This document shows, piece by piece, positions 7,481 through 34,098 of a DNA stretch of 64,000 nt (position 1 is its first letter; each line of letters begins with the position of its first letter). The notes under the pieces were generated by a model. That model saw only the letters and a list, made by a program, of their open reading frames with translations, was not told where the DNA came from and did no database searches. Location of the stretch: the NCBI GenBank assembly GCA_016211105.1, contig JACQSX010000031.1, positions 1 to 64,000 of the forward strand, given 5' to 3'. The position numbers were made by a program, and so were the translations under genes. This DNA is from Acidobacteriota bacterium. Its GTDB lineage: Bacteria; Acidobacteriota; UBA6911; JACQSX01.

Positions 7481-7580
7481 TTCGTTGTGGCTTCTTCTCC
7501 TCTGGATCGCATTTCTCACACGCCACAGCGCAGATATCGATACACGGTTTGCTTTGCGCCTGGTCGCATCGGTTGACAGT

Positions 7581-7609
7581 GTAGAGACGCCCCGGCGGGG
7601 CGTCTCTAC
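7581..7609. repeat. REP-like palindrome, copy 2
   Basis: Identical 29-bp palindrome GTAGAGACGCCCCGGCGGGGCGTCTCTAC. Confidence 0.85.
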
Positions 7610-7850
7610 GGAATATTTGTGGGCTTCTCACTCGCATACCTTACAACTATGCCCTTCTCCGCCACGCGCAAAAATCCTTTATGAGAAATGCAGGCTGCGT
7701 TTGTGCAAGCCCTTCCTTGTGGCCCTGAAGTCATTATGCTTTTGCTCCTATCATTGTCGCCATAAATTCTTATGCCTTGGTGCTTGGGGATGGAAACCCT
7801 CGCAAGGAGCATGAGACAAACAAGGGAATTCTTGGTTGATCGAAGTCGAA

Positions 7851-9455
7851 TCAGGTATTCGGGCTAGCCACCTTGCGCAGTTCTCGTCGCTTGATCTTCC
7901 CGGTGCTGGTCTTTGGTAGGTCCTGCACAAATTCGATTTCTTTGGGAACTTTGTAGGGCGCGATTCTTTGACCGATCTGCTGAGTAATTTCCCGAGCTAG
8001 CGCGTCTGAGGAAGTAAAGCTAGGCTTCAGCGTGATGAAGGCCTTTACCCTTTTCCCAATCACCTCGTCTGGAAGCCCGACCACCGCCGCCTCCAGTACT
8101 GCCGGGTGCTCCATTGCGGCTGCCTCCACTTCGCGCGGCGAAATGAGATAGGCCCTGCTCTTAATAAGATCGTCTGAGCGGGAGACATACCAGTACAAGC
8201 CATTTTCGTCCCGGTAAGCGAGGTCTTGGGTGTAATACCATCCGTCCTTGATGGTTGCATTCCAAATTTCGGGTCTTCGCTTGTAGCCCAGGCTCAAACC
8301 GGGATCGTCCGCCTTGATTACTAGATGCCCAATTTCCCCCGATTGGGCTTCTTTTCCTTCGTCATCGAGGATGGTGACGCGATGTCCAGGCAAGGGTTTA
8401 CCCAGCGCGCCCGGTTTCATCTCCGATCCGAGATTGCTATTCATGAAAATGTGGATCTCGGTCTGGCCCAGGGAGTCGAAGATCTCCACCCCTAAACGCC
8501 TTTTCGTTTCTGTATACGTATTGACAGGAAGCGGCTCGCCAGAACTAAAACAGCGGGTCAATGAGCTGAGATCGTACTTTTGCAGTGCCTTTTCTTCAAG
8601 AGCCAGAATGCGACGGAAGACGGTAGGTACCGCAACGAATATTGTGGCCCGGTATTTTTGGATCGATTTGAGAGCCTTCTCGGGATCAAAACGCCCGCTC
8701 GAAAATGCAACCGCCGCGCCACTGTACAGCGGAAAAAGAAGATTACAGCCCAAGGCGTAAATAAAGCTTATTTCCATGACCGTGTAGCAAATGTCAGAGG
8801 GCGTGAGTCGCATCAGCGTTTTACTGATGGAATCCCCTGTGGCGATGATCCAGCGATGAGCGTGTTCGATTCCTTTGGGTTCCCCGGTGGTTCCAGAAGT
8901 GTAAATAGAAAAAGCCACATCGTCCTTTGAAGTAGGCGCCACGTCCAGAACGTCCGATTCCTTCTCCAAGAGCTCTCGCAAGTTCAAGAACGGCGGCGCC
9001 CCTCCTCCATCAAACAGCACAATGTGTTGCAGCGGAGGACAGTCTTTTTTTAGAGCCACAATTGGCTCGCAAAGATCACTTGTGGTCATCGCTACTTTCA
9101 CCCCGCTGTTGTTGATAATGTGCTGCAGTTCATGAGATCGAAACAGGGAGTTCGTGGGTATGGGGACAGCTCCCAGCTTCATTGCTGCCAGAAAAACGAC
9201 AGCATACTCGGGGCGATTGTAGGAACGAATGAGGAGATAATCTCCGCGGCCGATGCCCAGGCGTCGTAGCGCATTTCCACAGCGGTTAACCTGCTGCAAC
9301 AGCTCCGAGTAGGTTATGCGGCCGCCCTCATCGAAGATAGCGACCCTATTGCCATTTCCCTCGGCCACGCGACGATCCAAAACTAATTCTGTCATATTCA
9401 GCTTTTCGGGAATATGCAACATTGGGAATCTCCTGATGAGTAATGATAATTCCAA
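7851..9455 (-). CDS. AMP-dependent acyl-CoA synthetase (benzoate-CoA ligase-like)
   Basis: SIYTSGTTGEPKGIEHAHRW P-loop, GWYYTQDLAYRDENG, GKIKRRELR; likely start MLHIPEK near 9422. Confidence 0.9.
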   Translation of the reverse strand: MELSLLIRRFPMLHIPEKLNMTELVLDRRVAEGNGNRVAIFDEGGRITYSELLQQVNRCGNALRRLGIGRGDYLLIRSYNRPEYAVVFLAAMKLGAVPIPTNSLFRSHELQHIINNSGVKVAMTTSDLCEPIVALKKDCPPLQHIVLFDGGGAPPFLNLRELLEKESDVLDVAPTSKDDVAFSIYTSGTTGEPKGIEHAHRWIIATGDSISKTLMRLTPSDICYTVMEISFIYALGCNLLFPLYSGAAVAFSSGRFDPEKALKSIQKYRATIFVAVPTVFRRILALEEKALQKYDLSSLTRCFSSGEPLPVNTYTETKRRLGVEIFDSLGQTEIHIFMNSNLGSEMKPGALGKPLPGHRVTILDDEGKEAQSGEIGHLVIKADDPGLSLGYKRRPEIWNATIKDGWYYTQDLAYRDENGLYWYVSRSDDLIKSRAYLISPREVEAAAMEHPAVLEAAVVGLPDEVIGKRVKAFITLKPSFTSSDALAREITQQIGQRIAPYKVPKEIEFVQDLPKTSTGKIKRRELRKVASPNT

Positions 9456-9698
9456 ACATTAATAAAACTACCCGGCGGCCGGTTCCCCAATTGGATCAAC
9501 CGCCGGTCGAAAAATCGTGCGAAAGAAACTAGACGTTCTCCGTGTGCATTGTCAAGCGAAAAGGAATTGAAGGAAACCGATGAATTCACGGCTCCGATGC
9601 TGCTCCGATGCAAAAATTGTTTTCGGCTTTTGCCTGACGACAAGGTAAAATTCTTTCGTTTCGCAATTCGCAAATTCATCTTTGAGGAGAAAACTTGA

Positions 9699-10373
9699 AT
9701 GCCCGTGAGAACGCTTTCCGACCTTTGCTTTACATACATCTCTTTTTTGACCTGTGGTTTGATATTTAGTTTTTCCAGTCTTGTCCTGCAAGGAGCAAGG
9801 GATGATCTGAGTTCCAAGCTGCCTGCAGGAGAGGGGAAAGAGCACGTGATGACTCTATGTACGAGTTGTCATGGTCTGGAAAGCGTGGTGAGCCAGCGGA
9901 AAAGTCCAGAGGATTGGGAAGCGACAGTCGGCAGCATGCGGAGCAGAATCTCAGCCGGGATGGAACAGGAAGCTGAAATTATTTCTAGGTATCTCGTAGC
10001 GAATTTCTCGGAAACGTCAATTCCCACTCCCAAGATTGAGGCTCAGCGAGCGGCGTCCGCCGGCGTCAACAGGATTAGGATCTATCACCAGGTCCTTTTT
10101 AATTTTAAACCCGAGATCTCGGAAGAAAAGCGTAAGGCTGCACTTGAGAGTGGACGGGCTGCGCTGGGAAGTATTCCTCAGGTGATGAATCTAGTGGTGG
10201 GAAAAATCATTCAAAAAGACACCGGGTTCCAGTACGGTCTGGCGGCCGGCTTCGCAAGCCAAGAAGACCTGGAACTCTATCGAACTGATTCAGAACACAA
10301 AAAGTGGGCGGAAGACGTGTTTGATCCGCTCATTGCAAAAAGCTCGATCCTGGACATTATCGTTTCCGAGTGA
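9699..10373 (+). CDS. Cytochrome c-like domain fused to Dabb (stress-responsive A/B barrel) domain, secreted
   Basis: N-terminal hydrophobic signal; VMTLCTSCHGLESVV heme-binding CxxCH; C-terminal RIYHQVLFNFKPEISEEKRKAAL...HKKWAEDVFDPLIAKSSILDIIV Dabb pattern. Confidence 0.8.
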   Translation: MPVRTLSDLCFTYISFLTCGLIFSFSSLVLQGARDDLSSKLPAGEGKEHVMTLCTSCHGLESVVSQRKSPEDWEATVGSMRSRISAGMEQEAEIISRYLVANFSETSIPTPKIEAQRAASAGVNRIRIYHQVLFNFKPEISEEKRKAALESGRAALGSIPQVMNLVVGKIIQKDTGFQYGLAAGFASQEDLELYRTDSEHKKWAEDVFDPLIAKSSILDIIVSE

Positions 10374-10538
10374 GTTCGGCCGCGGCGCCCCATTTAGACA
10401 TTGAGTTTGAGTTCCCGACCGGCTGCCAGAGGTCAATGGCGGTTAGATTGGATCGAGCTTCACACTTGCAGTCGAATTCGGCCCGATACAACTGAGCCTC
10501 CGTTCCAACTAACCTGATTGGCTCGCGGGTCTTGTCAT

Positions 10539-10889
10539 CTACTGTTTCGTGTAACGAACCTCAAAGGTCATGCAGCCCTTGGGGGCTTTCCACGGGCCAT
10601 GCCACATTCCGGGTGGGCGGCAGGCGTACTGTCCCGCCGTGAATTCTTGATTTAAAGTGAGATCGATGAGGCTGCCTTCGACGATGTACACTTCTTCCCA
10701 GAAGTCGTGCACCACCGGCCCATTGGGAGTAGTATCGGTTCCCGGATCGAATCGAAGGATTCGGGTGTAATCGCCGCTGTTGGGATCGCCGGTCAGAATG
10801 CGTTCTTGCATCCCCTTGCATTTGCTTCCTGGAACATCGCGCCAGGGCTTCGACGTGACGTTAAAAAACTCGAGTTCTTGTTTCGCCAT
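10539..10889 (-). CDS. Cupin-domain protein
   Basis: 116 aa; HDFWEEVYIVEGSLIDLTLNQEFTAGQYACRPPGMWHGPWKAPKGC. Confidence 0.8.
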   Translation of the reverse strand: MAKQELEFFNVTSKPWRDVPGSKCKGMQERILTGDPNSGDYTRILRFDPGTDTTPNGPVVHDFWEEVYIVEGSLIDLTLNQEFTAGQYACRPPGMWHGPWKAPKGCMTFEVRYTKQ

Positions 10890-11044
10890 GTATTCTTAAC
10901 CTCCGAAGTAATCTACAAAGTGGTGTCGCTACTTTATTGTCGTGACAAGAATTTGCGCTCAACAAATGAGGGCTGAGCAGTAAACGTGCCCAGCTCATGC
11001 GAATATGGCGAGTGACCCGCCGGAAATTATAGGCCGCATCGGCG

Positions 11045-11728
11045 TCATACATCTGCTCGCCGAACCCTATAGGCACAGCGCAACGACCGACCCGTCAGGT
11101 CATCCGATAGTTCAGCCTCGAAATAGGGATCGGTCGCGAACTTATTACCAATCAACGGTAGAGTGCCGGTATAAACCGCGGCTCCGTTCAAGGAATCTCC
11201 CACCCGCCGGCGCAGCATGGCAAGCAGGTCCTCGGGTGAGAGCGTAGCGGACATCCGTCCTTCCTGATATAAGCGTTGCCGCCCGTGTTCACCCACCCAG
11301 CTTCGTAAGATCAAGTTGTCCCAGTGGTCTTCCACATCAGCGTAACGCCACACTTCGGCGGAGATCGGCTTTGGACAAACCTGCTTTGCAGCGGGGATAT
11401 TGATCTTCTCCAATTCGCGGTCGGTATGGTCACTGCCTACAGCGACCCAAAGATGATTGCCGTCCACTAGAAACACGGTCTCCGCTTCTCCAGAAGAATG
11501 GGCGCCCAAGACCTCGACTTCACCGGCTGTAGTCAATCGATCCAGTGTGGTACGAAAGATCGTTGGGATCTCTGCAGGGGCGGGGATCCCATGCGCCGCC
11601 AATTCGTCAATATGGGCTTTCACAGCTTGCTGGTTTCTTCCAGTATAACCAGCGATAATCACCCGGTGAGGAACAAAATCTAACTCTCCTGAACCTTGCA
11701 ATTTGAATCTCATGTTACTGACCTTCAC
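11045..11728 (-). CDS. DUF2848-family protein
   Basis: 227 aa; VIIAGYTGRNQQAVKAHIDELAAHGIPAPAEIPTIF...VAVGSDHTDRELE matches the DUF2848 pattern; ATGA-type overlap with the aminotransferase end. Confidence 0.75.
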   Translation of the reverse strand: MKVSNMRFKLQGSGELDFVPHRVIIAGYTGRNQQAVKAHIDELAAHGIPAPAEIPTIFRTTLDRLTTAGEVEVLGAHSSGEAETVFLVDGNHLWVAVGSDHTDRELEKINIPAAKQVCPKPISAEVWRYADVEDHWDNLILRSWVGEHGRQRLYQEGRMSATLSPEDLLAMLRRRVGDSLNGAAVYTGTLPLIGNKFATDPYFEAELSDDLTGRSLRCAYRVRRADV

Positions 11729-12891
11729 TTCCCTAGAGTCGCGGGCATGTTGAGTACCGCCTTCTTCATCCGGTCCATGGCTTGTTTAATGCTCTCCGGT
11801 TTTGCGGCGTAGGAAACCCTTACGAAGCCTTCATAGTCGAATCCAGTCCCGTTGGTCAGGACCACCCCTGCCTCGTTGACCAAGTATTGCACGAAGTCTA
11901 AGGAGGGGACACCGAGGTTCCGAATATCTGCGAAGGCGAAAAAAGCCCCTTTTGGCAAATCACAGTGAACCCCAGGGATCTCGTTGAGCATTTCTACCAG
12001 CATGTCGCGTCTCTTCTGGTAGGCTTGCCGCATCTCCTCCACACAGTCCTGAGGTCCTTTCATGGCGGTGACGCAAGCTACCTGCGCAGGAACGTTGGCG
12101 CTGATGTTGACCGTATGATGATACTTCAACAAGTGCACCAACTTGTCGCTGGAAGCCGCCAGATATCCCACTCGCAAACCTGTCATGGCATAAGTTTTCG
12201 AAAAGCTGTTGACATGCACCACGTGATCCTTGGCGCCGGGAAAGGAAATGAGACTTTTATGTTGTACACCGCCGTAAACGAGGCTCTCATACACTTCGTC
12301 GGAGATCAGTATAATGTCGCGCTTCTTGGCAATTTCCAAAATCCTCCGCAAAGGTTCTTCTGGATAGACGCTTCCCGTGGGGTTGTTCGGGGTTAGGATA
12401 ATGATCGCTTTGGTCTTGGGAGTGATCGCTCTTTCAACGGCAGAAGGATCTGGAATAAATCCTTCCTCCTTCTTCAGTTTGACAAACACGGCCTTGGCGC
12501 CGGCCAGTTGAGCGTTCACCACGTAAGGCGGGTAGTGAGGAAGCAGGATGATGATCTCCTCGCCGGGGTTGGCCAGTGCCATGATGGCGATATGAAGGGC
12601 GGCTTGGCCTCCTGCTGTTATCAGAATCTCATCCTCCCAACGGTAAGAAACTCCGCACTGTTTTTGGATCTTCTCGGCGATGAGCTGACGCAGCTCGGGA
12701 ATTCCTCGATCAGGTCCGTAGTGGGTATGGCCGTCGTCCAACGCCTTTTTTGCTGCTTCTAAGATGTGTCGGGGTGTAGCAAAGTCCGGCTCTCCTAACT
12801 GCAGGTAGATACAATCGCCCCTTTTCGCCGCCAATTCCATGATGCTGTAAAAGGGGGATCGCTGGACGTTAAGAATTCTGTCTGCCAGCAT
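11725..12891 (-). CDS. Class I/II PLP-dependent aminotransferase
   Basis: 388 aa; LQLGEPDFATPRHI, TPNNPTGSVY, ISDEVYESLVY, NSFSKTYAMTGLRVGY (PLP lysine). Confidence 0.93.
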   Translation of the reverse strand: MLADRILNVQRSPFYSIMELAAKRGDCIYLQLGEPDFATPRHILEAAKKALDDGHTHYGPDRGIPELRQLIAEKIQKQCGVSYRWEDEILITAGGQAALHIAIMALANPGEEIIILLPHYPPYVVNAQLAGAKAVFVKLKKEEGFIPDPSAVERAITPKTKAIIILTPNNPTGSVYPEEPLRRILEIAKKRDIILISDEVYESLVYGGVQHKSLISFPGAKDHVVHVNSFSKTYAMTGLRVGYLAASSDKLVHLLKYHHTVNISANVPAQVACVTAMKGPQDCVEEMRQAYQKRRDMLVEMLNEIPGVHCDLPKGAFFAFADIRNLGVPSLDFVQYLVNEAGVVLTNGTGFDYEGFVRVSYAAKPESIKQAMDRMKKAVLNMPATLGK

Positions 12892-13025
12892 GTAAACTGC
12901 CTCCTCAGAGATTGACGCCGGGTCGGCCGGTCAGCGCTGCCCGGCACGGAGTGCTGGCGCCGATAACGCTTTCGATATGGGCAAAACAACGGTTCTTGTT
13001 TTGGCGGAAAGCGAGGCGAGAATAC

Positions 13026-14456
13026 CTATGCCTCATAATAAAGGTTCATTTCGTAGGGATGGGGCCTATTCCGCACCTCGTAGTATTCTTTCATCTTTCG
13101 TTCAATCCAGGCGTCGATAATATACTGATTGAAGACTTCTCCTTCAAGCAGATATTCGTAGTCTTTCTCGAGCGCATCCATCGCTTCTCTCAGAGAAGAA
13201 GGGAGAGGTTGTACGCTCTCGCTGAGCTGTTTGCTGAATCTCTCACTGTCCAAATCATACGGTCCAAAGCCAGCCTCCGTGGGGTCGATCTTCTTGCTGA
13301 TTCCGTCGATTCCGGCCATTAAAATTGCGCTCATGGCGATGTAAATATTGCATGTTGCATCGGATGGACGGAATTCGATGCTCTTCTCATGGGGCGCGAC
13401 TGCATATTTGGGGATGCGGATTGCAGCGCTTCGATTGGCCAGAGAGAAAAATAGATTTACCGGAGCCTCGAATCCAGGAACCAGTCGTTTAAATGAGTTG
13501 GTGCTAGGGTTGGTAAACGCCGTAAGGCTCGGAGCATGGCTTAGCAAACCACCAATATAATAAAGTGCCTCTTGGCTGAGACCTGCATACCCGCAGGCAT
13601 CGAAGAAGAGCGGTTTGCCTTCTCTGAATAACCTTTGGTGGATATGCATCCCGCTTCCGGCCTCATTATAAAGGGGTTTTGGCATGAAGGTCACCGTACG
13701 GCCATGCCTCTGAGCTACCATCTTGATTACATACTTGCACCACATGGTGTAATCGGCTGCCTTCACGAAGGGATAGAAAAGAATCTCGATTTCTGACTGG
13801 CCGGGTCCTCCAGCCTCGTGGTGATGGTATCGGACCTGGATGTCACTTTGCTGGATAATTTGTACCATTTCGGTGCGAAGATCGAACATAACATCCAGAG
13901 GGGGGATGGCGTGATAGCCACCCTTGCGCGAAATTTTGTGGCCCAAGTTTTTCTCCGACCGCATGCCGCTATTCCAGTCAGCCTCCACGGAATCGATGAA
14001 GTACTGTGCCAGGTTGATATCCGATTGGTAGTTGACGCTGTCAAAAATGTAAAACTCTAGTTCTGGGCTCCATAAGCTTTCGTTGGCGATGCCGCTGGAT
14101 TTTAGGAAGCTGTCTGCCCGTTTCGCGATCCCCCGAGGATCCTTTGGATAGGGCAATTTGGTGTCCGCTTCAGCAACATCGCAAGTCATTCCCAGCGTCT
14201 TTACCTCCCAGAACGGATCACCCTTAAGGGTCTCCGCATCGGGGATCAGGACCATATCGCCCGCCTCAGTGGTCTTAAAGCCTGGGGTGCTGGAAGCGTC
14301 AAAGGGGACTCCCTGGGTAAAGGTCTCCTCGCTCAGTTGATCAGCCGGGATCGTAAGGTGATGCCACTGGCCGAATAGATCAATAAACTTCAGGTCGATC
14401 ATTTCCACGCTATTGTTTTTGACATATAAGATGAGGTCTTGGATGTTTCCTTTCAT
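13026..14456 (-). CDS. glnA: Type I glutamine synthetase-like protein
   Basis: 476 aa; MVLIPDAET, ELEFYIFD, EAGPGQSEIEI-like motif, AGSGMHIHQRL, NSFKRLVPGFEAPVN, RIPKY...EFRPSDATCN. Confidence 0.88.
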   Translation of the reverse strand: MKGNIQDLILYVKNNSVEMIDLKFIDLFGQWHHLTIPADQLSEETFTQGVPFDASSTPGFKTTEAGDMVLIPDAETLKGDPFWEVKTLGMTCDVAEADTKLPYPKDPRGIAKRADSFLKSSGIANESLWSPELEFYIFDSVNYQSDINLAQYFIDSVEADWNSGMRSEKNLGHKISRKGGYHAIPPLDVMFDLRTEMVQIIQQSDIQVRYHHHEAGGPGQSEIEILFYPFVKAADYTMWCKYVIKMVAQRHGRTVTFMPKPLYNEAGSGMHIHQRLFREGKPLFFDACGYAGLSQEALYYIGGLLSHAPSLTAFTNPSTNSFKRLVPGFEAPVNLFFSLANRSAAIRIPKYAVAPHEKSIEFRPSDATCNIYIAMSAILMAGIDGISKKIDPTEAGFGPYDLDSERFSKQLSESVQPLPSSLREAMDALEKDYEYLLEGEVFNQYIIDAWIERKMKEYYEVRNRPHPYEMNLYYEA

Positions 14457-30316: not shown

Positions 30317-31372
30317 TCAATCCCGGCGATTGGTCACGAATTCCGCGTCTTCGTGGGCTACTCGGCTGTTAATCTCATCGAGTATTCGCGCAGGGCGTTG
30401 TCCTGTGTCTGGTCGTGTCGCTACTCCACGCCCGTAGGGTTGACGATTGACATGGAGAGAGAAAATGTCAAACCGCTGATAATGGCCGGTGACATCCTGC
30501 ACTATTTTCCCGCGCGCCACTTCTTCCAAATTTAGATCTGCGTAAAGAATCGTCTCCGCGCCGTCCTGGGGGCCGGCGATGTATTCGCCCATCGGGTTAA
30601 GGATTCCTGAATGGCCGCCTTCGCCAAAAAAGCGCCTGCGCGCGGCGGAGTCCAGTTCCAATACATCCTTCATTTCTTCACTCCAGACCGCTGCCGAGGA
30701 GATGACGAAGATGCGCCCTTCAAAGGCGTAGTAGCGCATGCGAATGTCCATGGTGTGGCACTGGCGCTCGTAGCCTGCGGTAGCAAAAGCAGGCCAGCTT
30801 GCTACGTGGACTACTTCTCCGTCGAGCAGGAGGGCAGTGCGGGCCAGGCTGTTGATGTTTTCGCCGCAGATAAGGCCGGACAACCCGCCAAAGGGCGTGC
30901 TGCAAGTGATCAACGTACTGCCGTCGCCTCCCGCATGGATCAGCCGCTCTGTGGCAGTGGGAATCAACTTGCGATGCTTGCCGAGCAGGTCGCCGTCGGG
31001 TCCGAATACAAGCTGTGTGTTGTAAATCGTACCGTAACTGCCGAGGTCCTTTTCAGCACAGCCCACCACCACATAGCTGTGAGCGCGCTGCGCTGCCCGC
31101 CCGAGCGCTTCCGTTGTCGGACTTGGGACAACAACGGCGTTCTTGAACAGTTCCAGATTAAAGCGGGTGCAGATGGGATCTGTGCCGATGTAAAAGTCAT
31201 ACCAGTAAGGATGGGCGGGGATATAACCTTCGGGGAAACCGATAATCTGTGCGCCTGCATCTCCCGCCTCTTCAATGAGCCGACAGGCTTTGGCTGCGGT
31301 AGCTTCGCGATCCAGCAGCACGGGTGCTGCTTGAACGGCTGCCGCCTTGAGCTTTAGAAACGTGTCACCCAT
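30317..31372 (-). CDS. Nitrilase / carbon-nitrogen hydrolase
   Basis: Glu-Lys-Cys triad context: IIGFPEGYIPAHPYW, GKHRKLIPTATER, GLICGENINSLART; start MGDTF at 31372 follows AGGAGGTG. Confidence 0.92.
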   Translation of the reverse strand: MGDTFLKLKAAAVQAAPVLLDREATAAKACRLIEEAGDAGAQIIGFPEGYIPAHPYWYDFYIGTDPICTRFNLELFKNAVVVPSPTTEALGRAAQRAHSYVVVGCAEKDLGSYGTIYNTQLVFGPDGDLLGKHRKLIPTATERLIHAGGDGSTLITCSTPFGGLSGLICGENINSLARTALLLDGEVVHVASWPAFATAGYERQCHTMDIRMRYYAFEGRIFVISSAAVWSEEMKDVLELDSAARRRFFGEGGHSGILNPMGEYIAGPQDGAETILYADLNLEEVARGKIVQDVTGHYQRFDIFSLHVNRQPYGRGVATRPDTGQRPARILDEINSRVAHEDAEFVTNRRD

Positions 31373-31393
31373 TGAAACACCTCCTTTGGTCAT

Positions 31394-32158
31394 CTAATGA
31401 AAGAGCGCGCCACCGTCAACATTGAAAGTTTGGCCAGTGATGAACTCGCTGTCTTTTGACAGCAGAAACGCGACGACGCCGTTCAGATCGTCGGGATGCT
31501 GTGCGCGACGGATCGCCCGAACAGCGATGGCTCGCTGCTGGTCGGCGTCAGAATAACGTTCCTTGACGATTAGGGTTTCTACCAAACCCGGCATAACTGC
31601 GTTGATACGAATGCCGTCGGAACCAAATTCACGAGCGAGTGCTCGAGTGAAACCAATTTGAGCTGATTTTGAAGTCACATAATGTAGAAAACCGGGAACC
31701 CCTGACAGAACCGTGTTGGAGGAGATGTTGATGATGCTGCCTGATTTTTGCTCTTGCATCTGCGGTAGAACGGCGCGGCAACATAGGAAGGGCCCTCGAA
31801 TGTTTACCGCCATCACGCGATCCCATGCGGTAACGTCAATGTCGAAGATCGAACGTTTTGGCAGGAGGGCAGAAAAAAGTGCGGCATTGTTGATCAACCC
31901 ATCGATTCTGCCGAAATTCTGAACTGCGAGGCTGGCGATCTGCTCGGTGTCCTGTTGAGAAGAGACATCGGCGCGTACAGCAACTACCTCTCCCCCCGAC
32001 CTCTCGATTTTCCCCGCCAGAACTTTGATGCCAGGCTCGTCCACGTCTGCCATCACTACTTTGGCGCCTTTTTCTGCGAGGAAGGCTGAATAGTTCGCGC
32101 CAATCCCTTGGGCTGCGCCGGTAACAATCACCACCAGACCACGAATGTCAGAACCCAT
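31394..32158 (-). CDS. SDR-family oxidoreductase (FabG-like)
   Basis: 254 aa; VTGAAQGIGANYS, GLINNAALFS, YVTSKSAQIGFTRALAREFGSDGIRINAVMPG, ITGQTFNVDGG. Confidence 0.93.
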   Translation of the reverse strand: MGSDIRGLVVIVTGAAQGIGANYSAFLAEKGAKVVMADVDEPGIKVLAGKIERSGGEVVAVRADVSSQQDTEQIASLAVQNFGRIDGLINNAALFSALLPKRSIFDIDVTAWDRVMAVNIRGPFLCCRAVLPQMQEQKSGSIINISSNTVLSGVPGFLHYVTSKSAQIGFTRALAREFGSDGIRINAVMPGLVETLIVKERYSDADQQRAIAVRAIRRAQHPDDLNGVVAFLLSKDSEFITGQTFNVDGGALFH

Positions 32159-32980: not shown

Positions 32981-33955
32981 ATGAATCTCAAAATACAGCA
33001 CCGAAATCTTCAGATTCCGAAAACTTTGGAAGAGCTCATCGAGAAGAAGTCGCGGAAGGTTCAAAGAGTGCTCCCCACCTTCGCTTCGCAGGATTTGCAT
33101 TTGCATGTGAGTCTGGAAAAGCTGCCGCGGGGGAGGCAGTACCGGACGGTTGTCGTGCTGAATCTACCACAGAGCGCGATCCGCGTAGAAGATATTGAAG
33201 TAAATGCCTCTCATAGCGTGCTGCGTGCTTTTGGGGAACTATTGCGCAGAATTAAGAGATTTAAAAGCCAGCTCAATCGCGAGAAATTTTGGCAGCAGCG
33301 CGTCTTGATTCCGGCTGCGTCTGCAGTCGATGAAACCCAGGAGATCGAGAATGCGATCAATCAGAGCCTGGATAAAGTAGAAAATTACATCCGTCGCGAG
33401 TTGTATCACCAGGTGCTGATGGGAAATTTTCCCGCAGGTCTTGTGCAGCCTCAAGCTGTATTGGATGAGGTATTTCTTGAAGTGAGATCCCGGGTCACGA
33501 GTAAGCCTCCTAACTGGACGGTCGAACAGTGGATGATTCAAATCGCTCGGGATAAGCTGCAAAAGCGCGCGCAGGACCTGGAGGTTAGTCGGGAAGAGAC
33601 CCACGTCGAAGAGGCTGCTGAAAACGTTCCGCGTTGGGAAGACGAGCCGCTCAATTTCTATCAGCCTGACGAGGTGCTGCGAGTAGAGGACTTACTGCCC
33701 AGTGAAAATAGCGTCACGCCAGAAGAATTGTTAGCCCAACATGAGAGGGAAGAGCAGCTCCAAGAGGCGATTGCGCAGCTTCCCGACTCGATCCGAGAGT
33801 CTTTTGTCCTTTTCGCGTTAGAAGGCTTTAACTCTGATGAAATTGCGATGATCACCCGCAAAACCCAGGGCCGGGTTCTTGAGGAAGTACAGGAGGCTCA
33901 AAGCCTGTTACGCCAGAAGTTCAATGTTGGTAGACAAAGACAGGTGCACAATTGA
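32981..33955 (+). CDS. HPF/RaiA-like domain fused to sigma-70 (ECF-like) C-terminal region
   Basis: N-term MNLKIQHRNLQIPKTLEELIEKKSRKVQRVLPTFASQDLHLHVSLEKLPRGRQYRTVVVLNLPQSAIRVEDIEVNASHSVLRAFGELLRRIKRFKSQL (HPF-like); C-term EEQLQEAIAQLPDSIRESFVLFALEGFNSDEIAMITRKTQGRVLEEVQEAQSLLRQKF (sigma region 4-like). ATG 32981 preferred over 32951. Confidence 0.8.
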   Translation: MNLKIQHRNLQIPKTLEELIEKKSRKVQRVLPTFASQDLHLHVSLEKLPRGRQYRTVVVLNLPQSAIRVEDIEVNASHSVLRAFGELLRRIKRFKSQLNREKFWQQRVLIPAASAVDETQEIENAINQSLDKVENYIRRELYHQVLMGNFPAGLVQPQAVLDEVFLEVRSRVTSKPPNWTVEQWMIQIARDKLQKRAQDLEVSREETHVEEAAENVPRWEDEPLNFYQPDEVLRVEDLLPSENSVTPEELLAQHEREEQLQEAIAQLPDSIRESFVLFALEGFNSDEIAMITRKTQGRVLEEVQEAQSLLRQKFNVGRQRQVHN

Positions 33956-34098
33956 GGCACAAAATACGCGAACTGAAAGCCCAACGTGAGAGTTTAGAGA
34001 AATCCCATGATTGCAAAGGGCTTCATGCTGTGAGGCGTCAAATTCACGAACTCAAACACAAGATTCGAAGCATGGGAAAGCAAGGCCATGGTCAGTGA
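33952..34098 (+). CDS. Small basic ORF translationally coupled to HPF-sigma fusion
   Basis: TTG start overlaps the upstream TGA (TTGA); reads (M)RHKIRELKAQRESLEKSHDCKGLHAVRRQIHELKHKIRSMGKQGHGQ*; below the ORF-track cutoff. Confidence 0.5.
   Translation: MRHKIRELKAQRESLEKSHDCKGLHAVRRQIHELKHKIRSMGKQGHGQ

Follow-up and report, generated by a model that had tools for sequence, protein, structure and literature searches.

Gene, domains and predicted fold of the fusion

The window, that is the whole stretch of 64,000 nucleotides that was analysed, carries on its forward strand an open reading frame (32981-33955) with an ATG start at 32981 and a TGA stop at 33953-33955, which encodes one polypeptide of 324 amino acids. 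Its start codon coincides with the conserved MNxK start common to the orthologues. We could confirm that this gene encodes an HPF/RaiA domain fused to a sigma2-sigma4 module resembling that of ECF sigma factors. The following features were assigned:

32981..33955, forward strand: HPF-sigma fusion gene, 324 amino acids plus stop
32981..33295, forward strand: HPF/RaiA (S30AE) domain, residues 1-105, with a net charge of about +11
33284..33325, forward strand: hinge of low confidence, residues 102-115 (pLDDT below 50, AlphaFold)
33323..33601, forward strand: sigma2-like domain, residues 115-207 (AlphaFold, Foldseek and alignment)
33602..33715, forward strand: acidic sigma2/sigma4 linker, residues 208-245, mostly of low confidence (predicted disordered), yet conserved
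33653..33673, forward strand: NFYQPDE, hallmark motif of the fusion family, residues 225-231
33719..33946, forward strand: sigma4-like domain, residues 247-322 (profiles, AlphaFold and Foldseek)
33878..33895, forward strand: recognition-helix positions L300 E301 E302 V303 Q304 E305 (alignment to RpoE)
33952..34098, forward strand: small basic ORF of 48 amino acids, its TTG start overlapping the fusion stop codon

No convincing homologue of the 48-amino-acid ORF was found among the fetched loci of relatives. It may not be a real gene, and its translational coupling to the fusion was dropped as a candidate on the same grounds. In a scan for promoters and terminators and a fold of the 5′ RNA of the fusion, the only signal beyond shuffled sequences was a weak fold, with z at about -2. 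In the two closest pairs, dN was lower than dS in every computable domain, the other pairs being mostly saturated at synonymous sites. Adjacent nitrilase-like (30317-31393) and SDR-like (31394-32158) genes, as read from the sequence, lie on the reverse strand just upstream of the fusion, a setting that differs from the one conserved around its orthologues. At the window locus itself no anti-sigma, chaperone or hibernation neighbour was found.

The S30AE profile (Pfam PF02482) matched the window protein with 37.4 bits (E=4.5e-9), above the cut-off of 23.7. The matches of its sigma half stayed below the respective cut-offs: Sigma70_r4_2 reached 22.4 bits (Pfam cut-off 25.7), NCBIfam sigma70-ECF reached 33.2 bits over residues 157-313 (3.7e-8, cut-off 42.9), and PRK12513 (1.2e-9) and the PhyR family (9.3e-7) each fell short of their own. 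In the close orthologue L036, PhyR_sigma-like (PF22233) was matched with 33.5 bits, above the Pfam cut-off of 27. A nine-row profile (A4) found solved HPFs (E 8.1e-7), ECF sigma factors including E. coli sigmaE (8.8e-6) and PhyR (7e-4). AlphaFold, run with the nine-row alignment, predicted the beta-alpha-beta3-alpha fold of HPF followed by sigma2 and sigma4 helices, with hinge and linker at low confidence (mean pLDDT 74); the pTM of 0.44 makes the relative placement of the domains in this model unreliable. With Foldseek, the HPF half matched HPF structures at a TM to target of 0.84-0.91, and the remainder matched ECF sigma structures, some of them sigma/anti-sigma complexes. All regions of the window fusion are conserved in full-length orthologues. 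Together, orthologues, profiles and folds rule out chance or a frame artefact as the source of the fusion.

An earlier, sequence-only reading of this DNA had assigned the first ~100 residues to HPF/RaiA and the last ~100 to sigma region 4, and had seen a likeness to region 2 in a WMIQIARDKLQ segment between them. All three assignments agree with the S30AE match and the predicted HPF fold, with the weak ECF and PhyR profile matches, sigma4 helices and ECF structures found for the C-terminal part, and with the alignment, in which WMIQIARDKLQ is the equivalent of sigma region 2.3/2.4. The HMM search that it proposed matched both halves, the sigma half of the window protein below the cut-offs, and a structure prediction of the protein contained the HPF beta-alpha-beta fold as well as sigma2 and sigma4 helices. 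Finally, a search for the same architecture recovered full-length fusions in Acidobacteriota and on proteobacterial plasmids.

Distribution, resistance islands and gene neighbourhoods

Of the 38 genomes of the window's class that were searched, its own among them, nine carry full-length fusions of one orthologous group, and the full-length relatives are 48-63% identical to the window protein. Partial fusions of the same group occur in a few further genomes among the 38, and the class holds a divergent additional member (L018/L053). Eleven genomes of other acidobacterial families also carry fusions, one of them two. While the scan of the whole-genome collection matched Acidobacteriota only, other phyla were covered via the plasmid collection. 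There, a translated search with the acidobacterial L066 gave 292 records, mostly from Klebsiella, Enterobacter, Acinetobacter and E. coli, 271 of them with a query coverage of 80% or more; the window protein as query gave 22. In the plasmid records the members bear names such as 'flagellar biosynthesis protein FliA', 'RNA polymerase subunit sigma-28' or 'sigma-70 family', which are probably misannotations of the HPF-sigma family. No viral relatives were found in IMG/VR (query P0001) and none in the phage genomes searched with orf11, and a viral or phage origin of the fusion was rejected on the basis of these collections.

In the tree of the sigma half, all 27 fusions tested fell on one side of the branch from the ECF sigma factors (100/100), and the proteobacterial forms adjoined the acidobacterial L066 (94/92). 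In the S30AE tree the long-branch fusion row L071 joined the canonical HPFs and L034, a protein of the window's genome, fell among the fusions; on this short alignment the data are compatible with one clade of fusion HPF domains (p-AU 0.4). The open-licence PMC literature contained no description of an S30AE-sigma fusion, although one may exist elsewhere. The earlier remark that no characterised protein with this architecture was known stands for the searchable literature but needs amending in one respect, as orf11 of the tLST is a genetically studied member.

This E. coli match to the family is a 'hypothetical protein' encoded between hdeD-GI and trx-GI in a heat-resistance island (for example L079:14926-16071 on the E. 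coli plasmid NZ_CP061755.1, likewise annotated hypothetical). Judged by its sequence, tLST orf11 is a divergent HPF-sigma protein. In the open-licence PMC literature searched it has no assigned function, and its deletion from an island-carrying laboratory E. coli (MG1655) left the lipid-oxidation ratio after chlorine unchanged (PMC8407380). A copy at a coverage of at least 80% was present in 144 of the 5,426 complete E. coli genomes (~2.7%), and 298 plasmid records, with Klebsiella, Enterobacter, Acinetobacter and E. coli as hosts, match orf11. The window contains no tLST homologue at the threshold used, and the window fusion therefore lies outside the heat-resistance island. On alpha- and betaproteobacterial plasmids the fusion stands beside a large AAA ATPase (in a ClpK-like position), FtsH, HdeD and Hsp20, or beside GroES/GroEL/DnaK. 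Acidobacteriota too have such a setting, as L066 belongs to an island that also holds Hsp20, a Clp-type protease, FtsH and an ATPase of the ClpB/ClpK-like kind. The locus L086 (genome G376, 7512-13688, reverse strand) is a tLST-like island with Hsp20, a Clp-type protease, an HdeD-like gene, FtsH and the HPF-sigma gene, which is directly followed by a zinc-finger ORF of 95 amino acids with an HxxxCxxC motif (zf-HC2 match below the Pfam cut-off) and then by baeRF10; the island continues with a PGK-Usp ORF and, at a greater distance, a ClpB/ClpK-like gene.

The usual gene order in the window's class is a GNAT gene on the opposite strand, a gene for an OB+HD protein similar to the exonuclease YhaM, then the fusion and a PLP aminotransferase gene; the window locus does not have it. 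Hibernation and stress genes stand beside the fusion in relatives. In family f18, baeRF10 (eRF1/Balon-like) lies directly downstream of the fusion in five of the six members (L091, L093, L094, L095 and L097) and is the sole baeRF10 of these five genomes, while the sixth has none. The window's own genome yielded no baeRF10. In L092 (5895-7372) the stop codon of the fusion overlaps the start of the ribosome-rescue gene smpB; a two-domain ABC ATPase of the ABC-F type is encoded further upstream there. Directly downstream of the fusion, L087 (8396-8734) and L090 (8499-8837), from two genera, carry a STAS gene of the anti-sigma-antagonist type. Such STAS and zinc-finger neighbours are confined to one other acidobacterial family, and beside the fusions of the window clade no recurrent anti-sigma gene was found.

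Residue conservation in the two halves

The C-terminal helix of the window S30AE domain is basic (LLRRIKRFKSQLNRE), and the net charge of the domain is +11, compared with +5 to +11 in relatives. In five relatives (G005, G020, G024, G026 and G028, of which G005 and G026 are ~96% complete) the fusion is the sole S30AE protein found. Because it is basic, HPF-like and the only such protein in these five relatives, the HPF half of the window clade looks functional. The window's own genome also encodes a canonical HPF beside rpoN and a third S30AE protein, L034 (G000:C51:35576), with a cold-shock-like C-terminal region (neighbour and region read from the sequence). By the same kind of reading, L034 lies near an Hsp20-like gene. 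Family f7 (L014-L017) has a stand-alone HPF nested inside the fusion clade (97/91), which is the only S30AE protein found in the two f7 genomes checked; this suggests that the sigma half was probably lost in f7 and the HPF half kept. The HPF domains of the island forms are weakly basic (net +1 to +7), and their C-terminal helix is mostly neutral or acidic. In the plasmid forms the HPF half has diverged further. Domains of the orf11 type match the window clade (E 1.4e-10) and the window clade matches canonical HPF (5e-8). The HPF half of E. coli orf11 is highly diverged, so that its direct link to canonical HPF is weak and was made through these intermediates.

For the sigma half, 28-29 fusions were compared with 14 acidobacterial ECF sigma factors and E. 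coli RpoE (n=15). At the region 2.3/2.4 position of RpoE N80, the Asn that contacts the -10 promoter element, 14/15 ECF sigma factors have Asn, compared to 0/28 fusions. Region 2.2 Gln51 of RpoE, a core-binding residue in the sigma70 literature, is Gln in 13/15 ECF sigma factors and Asp in 29/29 fusions. The window fusion itself has Asp at the Q51 site and lacks Asn at the N80 site, and its L300 E301 E302 V303 Q304 E305 stand where RpoE has R171 S172 R173 I174 F175 R176, positions of the -35 recognition helix. The mean net charge of this helix is +2.9 in the ECF sigma factors, versus -2.3 in the window clade, 0.0 in the other acidobacterial fusions and -2.3 in the proteobacterial ones. Conserved instead in the fusions are D162, R272, P247 and the QPD(E/D) motif in the low-confidence linker.

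Since the promoter-contact positions are lost family-wide, the residue comparison does not support a promoter-reading sigma factor, and a plain sigma factor is disfavoured. Directing RNA polymerase to promoters as a literal sigma factor finds no support in view of the missing -10 Asn and of a -35 helix without positive charge; protein-protein contacts, the alternative named in the sequence-only reading, fit better with the loss of these residues. This residue pattern is what one would anticipate in a sigma mimic that, like PhyR, binds proteins. The sigma-like domain of PhyR binds the anti-sigma factor NepR. No NepR was found in the window's genome, while the Caulobacter control was positive, and NepR was set aside as partner of the window fusion.

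Proposed role and relation to known systems

Ribosome hibernation and sigma switching are two main means of shutdown and reprogramming in stressed bacteria, and as a rule their coordination is only indirect. One conserved polypeptide that holds both modules would join them physically and directly. We propose that the fusion serves as a hibernation factor under stress and that its sigma-mimic tail, in the manner of PhyR, binds a partner in the sigma/RNA polymerase system, a reading that we place midway between likely and unlikely. The N-terminal HPF domain would most likely bind the 30S decoding region and silence or protect idle ribosomes. The sigma2-sigma4 module, presumably derived from an ECF sigma factor that lost its promoter-reading residues, would most likely act like the PhyR domain and bind a protein of the sigma circuit. 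The preferred partner would be an anti-sigma factor, so that a real stress sigma factor is freed; failing that, RNA polymerase would be the partner. One polypeptide could then tie ribosome occupancy to the transcription programme; that the protein binds ribosomes, which sigma-circuit partner it has and in which direction the signal runs are our inferences. The coupling of hibernation to transcription that had been suggested earlier is plausible and supported by the gene neighbourhoods; a literal promoter-directing sigma factor is not supported.

The sigma2/sigma4 module could instead bind core RNA polymerase without reading DNA, thereby parking polymerase on hibernating ribosomes or blocking sigma. 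Kept are the sigma2.2 helix and, in a region-3.2-like position, the acidic QPDE linker, which is conserved, and an ECF sigma fold is predicted; however, Asp replaces the core-binding Gln of region 2.2 in all 29 members, and neighbours of the STAS and zinc-finger types speak for anti-sigma partners, so that we consider such a polymerase-ribosome tether unlikely. The same neighbours, although present in one family only, and a sigma-type fold and motifs kept across large divergence argue against a purely structural or dimerising module, which would replace the C-terminal domain of long HPF for 100S or ribosome contact and have no link to transcription. In several relatives no other S30AE protein was found, so that the fusion may do the whole HPF job, and its neighbours are often ribosome factors, both of which would suit a structural module; we nevertheless regard it as rather improbable.

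We consider it very unlikely that the HPF half has become a vestige and that the protein, in its tLST forms at least, works off the ribosome as a quality-control scaffold. The weakly basic domains of the island forms, their mostly neutral or acidic C-terminal helix and their chaperone and protease neighbours would fit such a scaffold, but the HPF half of the window clade is strongly basic, and in several genomes no S30AE copy was found besides it. If the protein were a true ECF sigma factor that is gated when its HPF domain binds the ribosome, the weak sigma70 matches and the sigma-70/FliA annotations of proteobacterial members would be explained. With the -10 Asn lost in all members, recognition helices that are acidic or neutral, and no recurrent anti-sigma gene beside the window clade, this is the least probable of the readings weighed here.

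Returning to the hibernation factor with a sigma-mimic tail, we tentatively suggest, leaning somewhat towards doubt, an undescribed family that wires idle ribosomes to a sigma/anti-sigma circuit. Binding of HPF to the ribosome would expose or hide the mimic and so switch stress transcription. This family would include orf11, and the domain assignment gives this orphan gene of the tLST, an island for resistance to heat and chlorine in E. coli and Klebsiella, a testable role hypothesis.

The N-terminal fold, length and basic C-terminal helix of the fusion are like those of HPF/RaiA/YfiA (PF02482). It differs in that helix 1 is followed by a few additional residues (LPTF segment) and in a tail that is a sigma-like module instead of the dimerisation domain of long HPF. 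With ECF sigma factors (group 4 sigma70) it has the sigma2-linker-sigma4 fold in common, but neither their -10 Asn nor their basic -35 helix, and it has Asp for Gln51. tLST orf11 is homologous over nearly its full length, with the same domain order, the QPD(E/D) linker motif and a place in the one sigma-half clade; in contrast to the window protein it is island-borne, beside HdeD and Trx, and its HPF half is more diverged.

Balon (aeRF1-like) is reported to bind ribosomes together with RaiA, and Balon operons to contain RaiA, Hsp20, HdeD and 'alternative sigma70 factors' (PMC10901736). The baeRF10 genes near the fusion in f18 and L086 are reminiscent of these operons, and some of the 'alternative sigma70 factors' might belong to the HPF-sigma family. 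Balon itself is a different protein, and the passages considered describe no fusion. PhyR, which has been described as a sigma mimic (PMC4598750), likewise has sigma2 and sigma4 domains without promoter-contact residues, its profile PF22233 is matched (33.5 bits in L036) and its structures were reached by our profile, but the fusion carries an HPF domain in place of the receiver domain. The HPF-sigma family combines two known kinds of protein, HPF and sigma mimic, in a new form.
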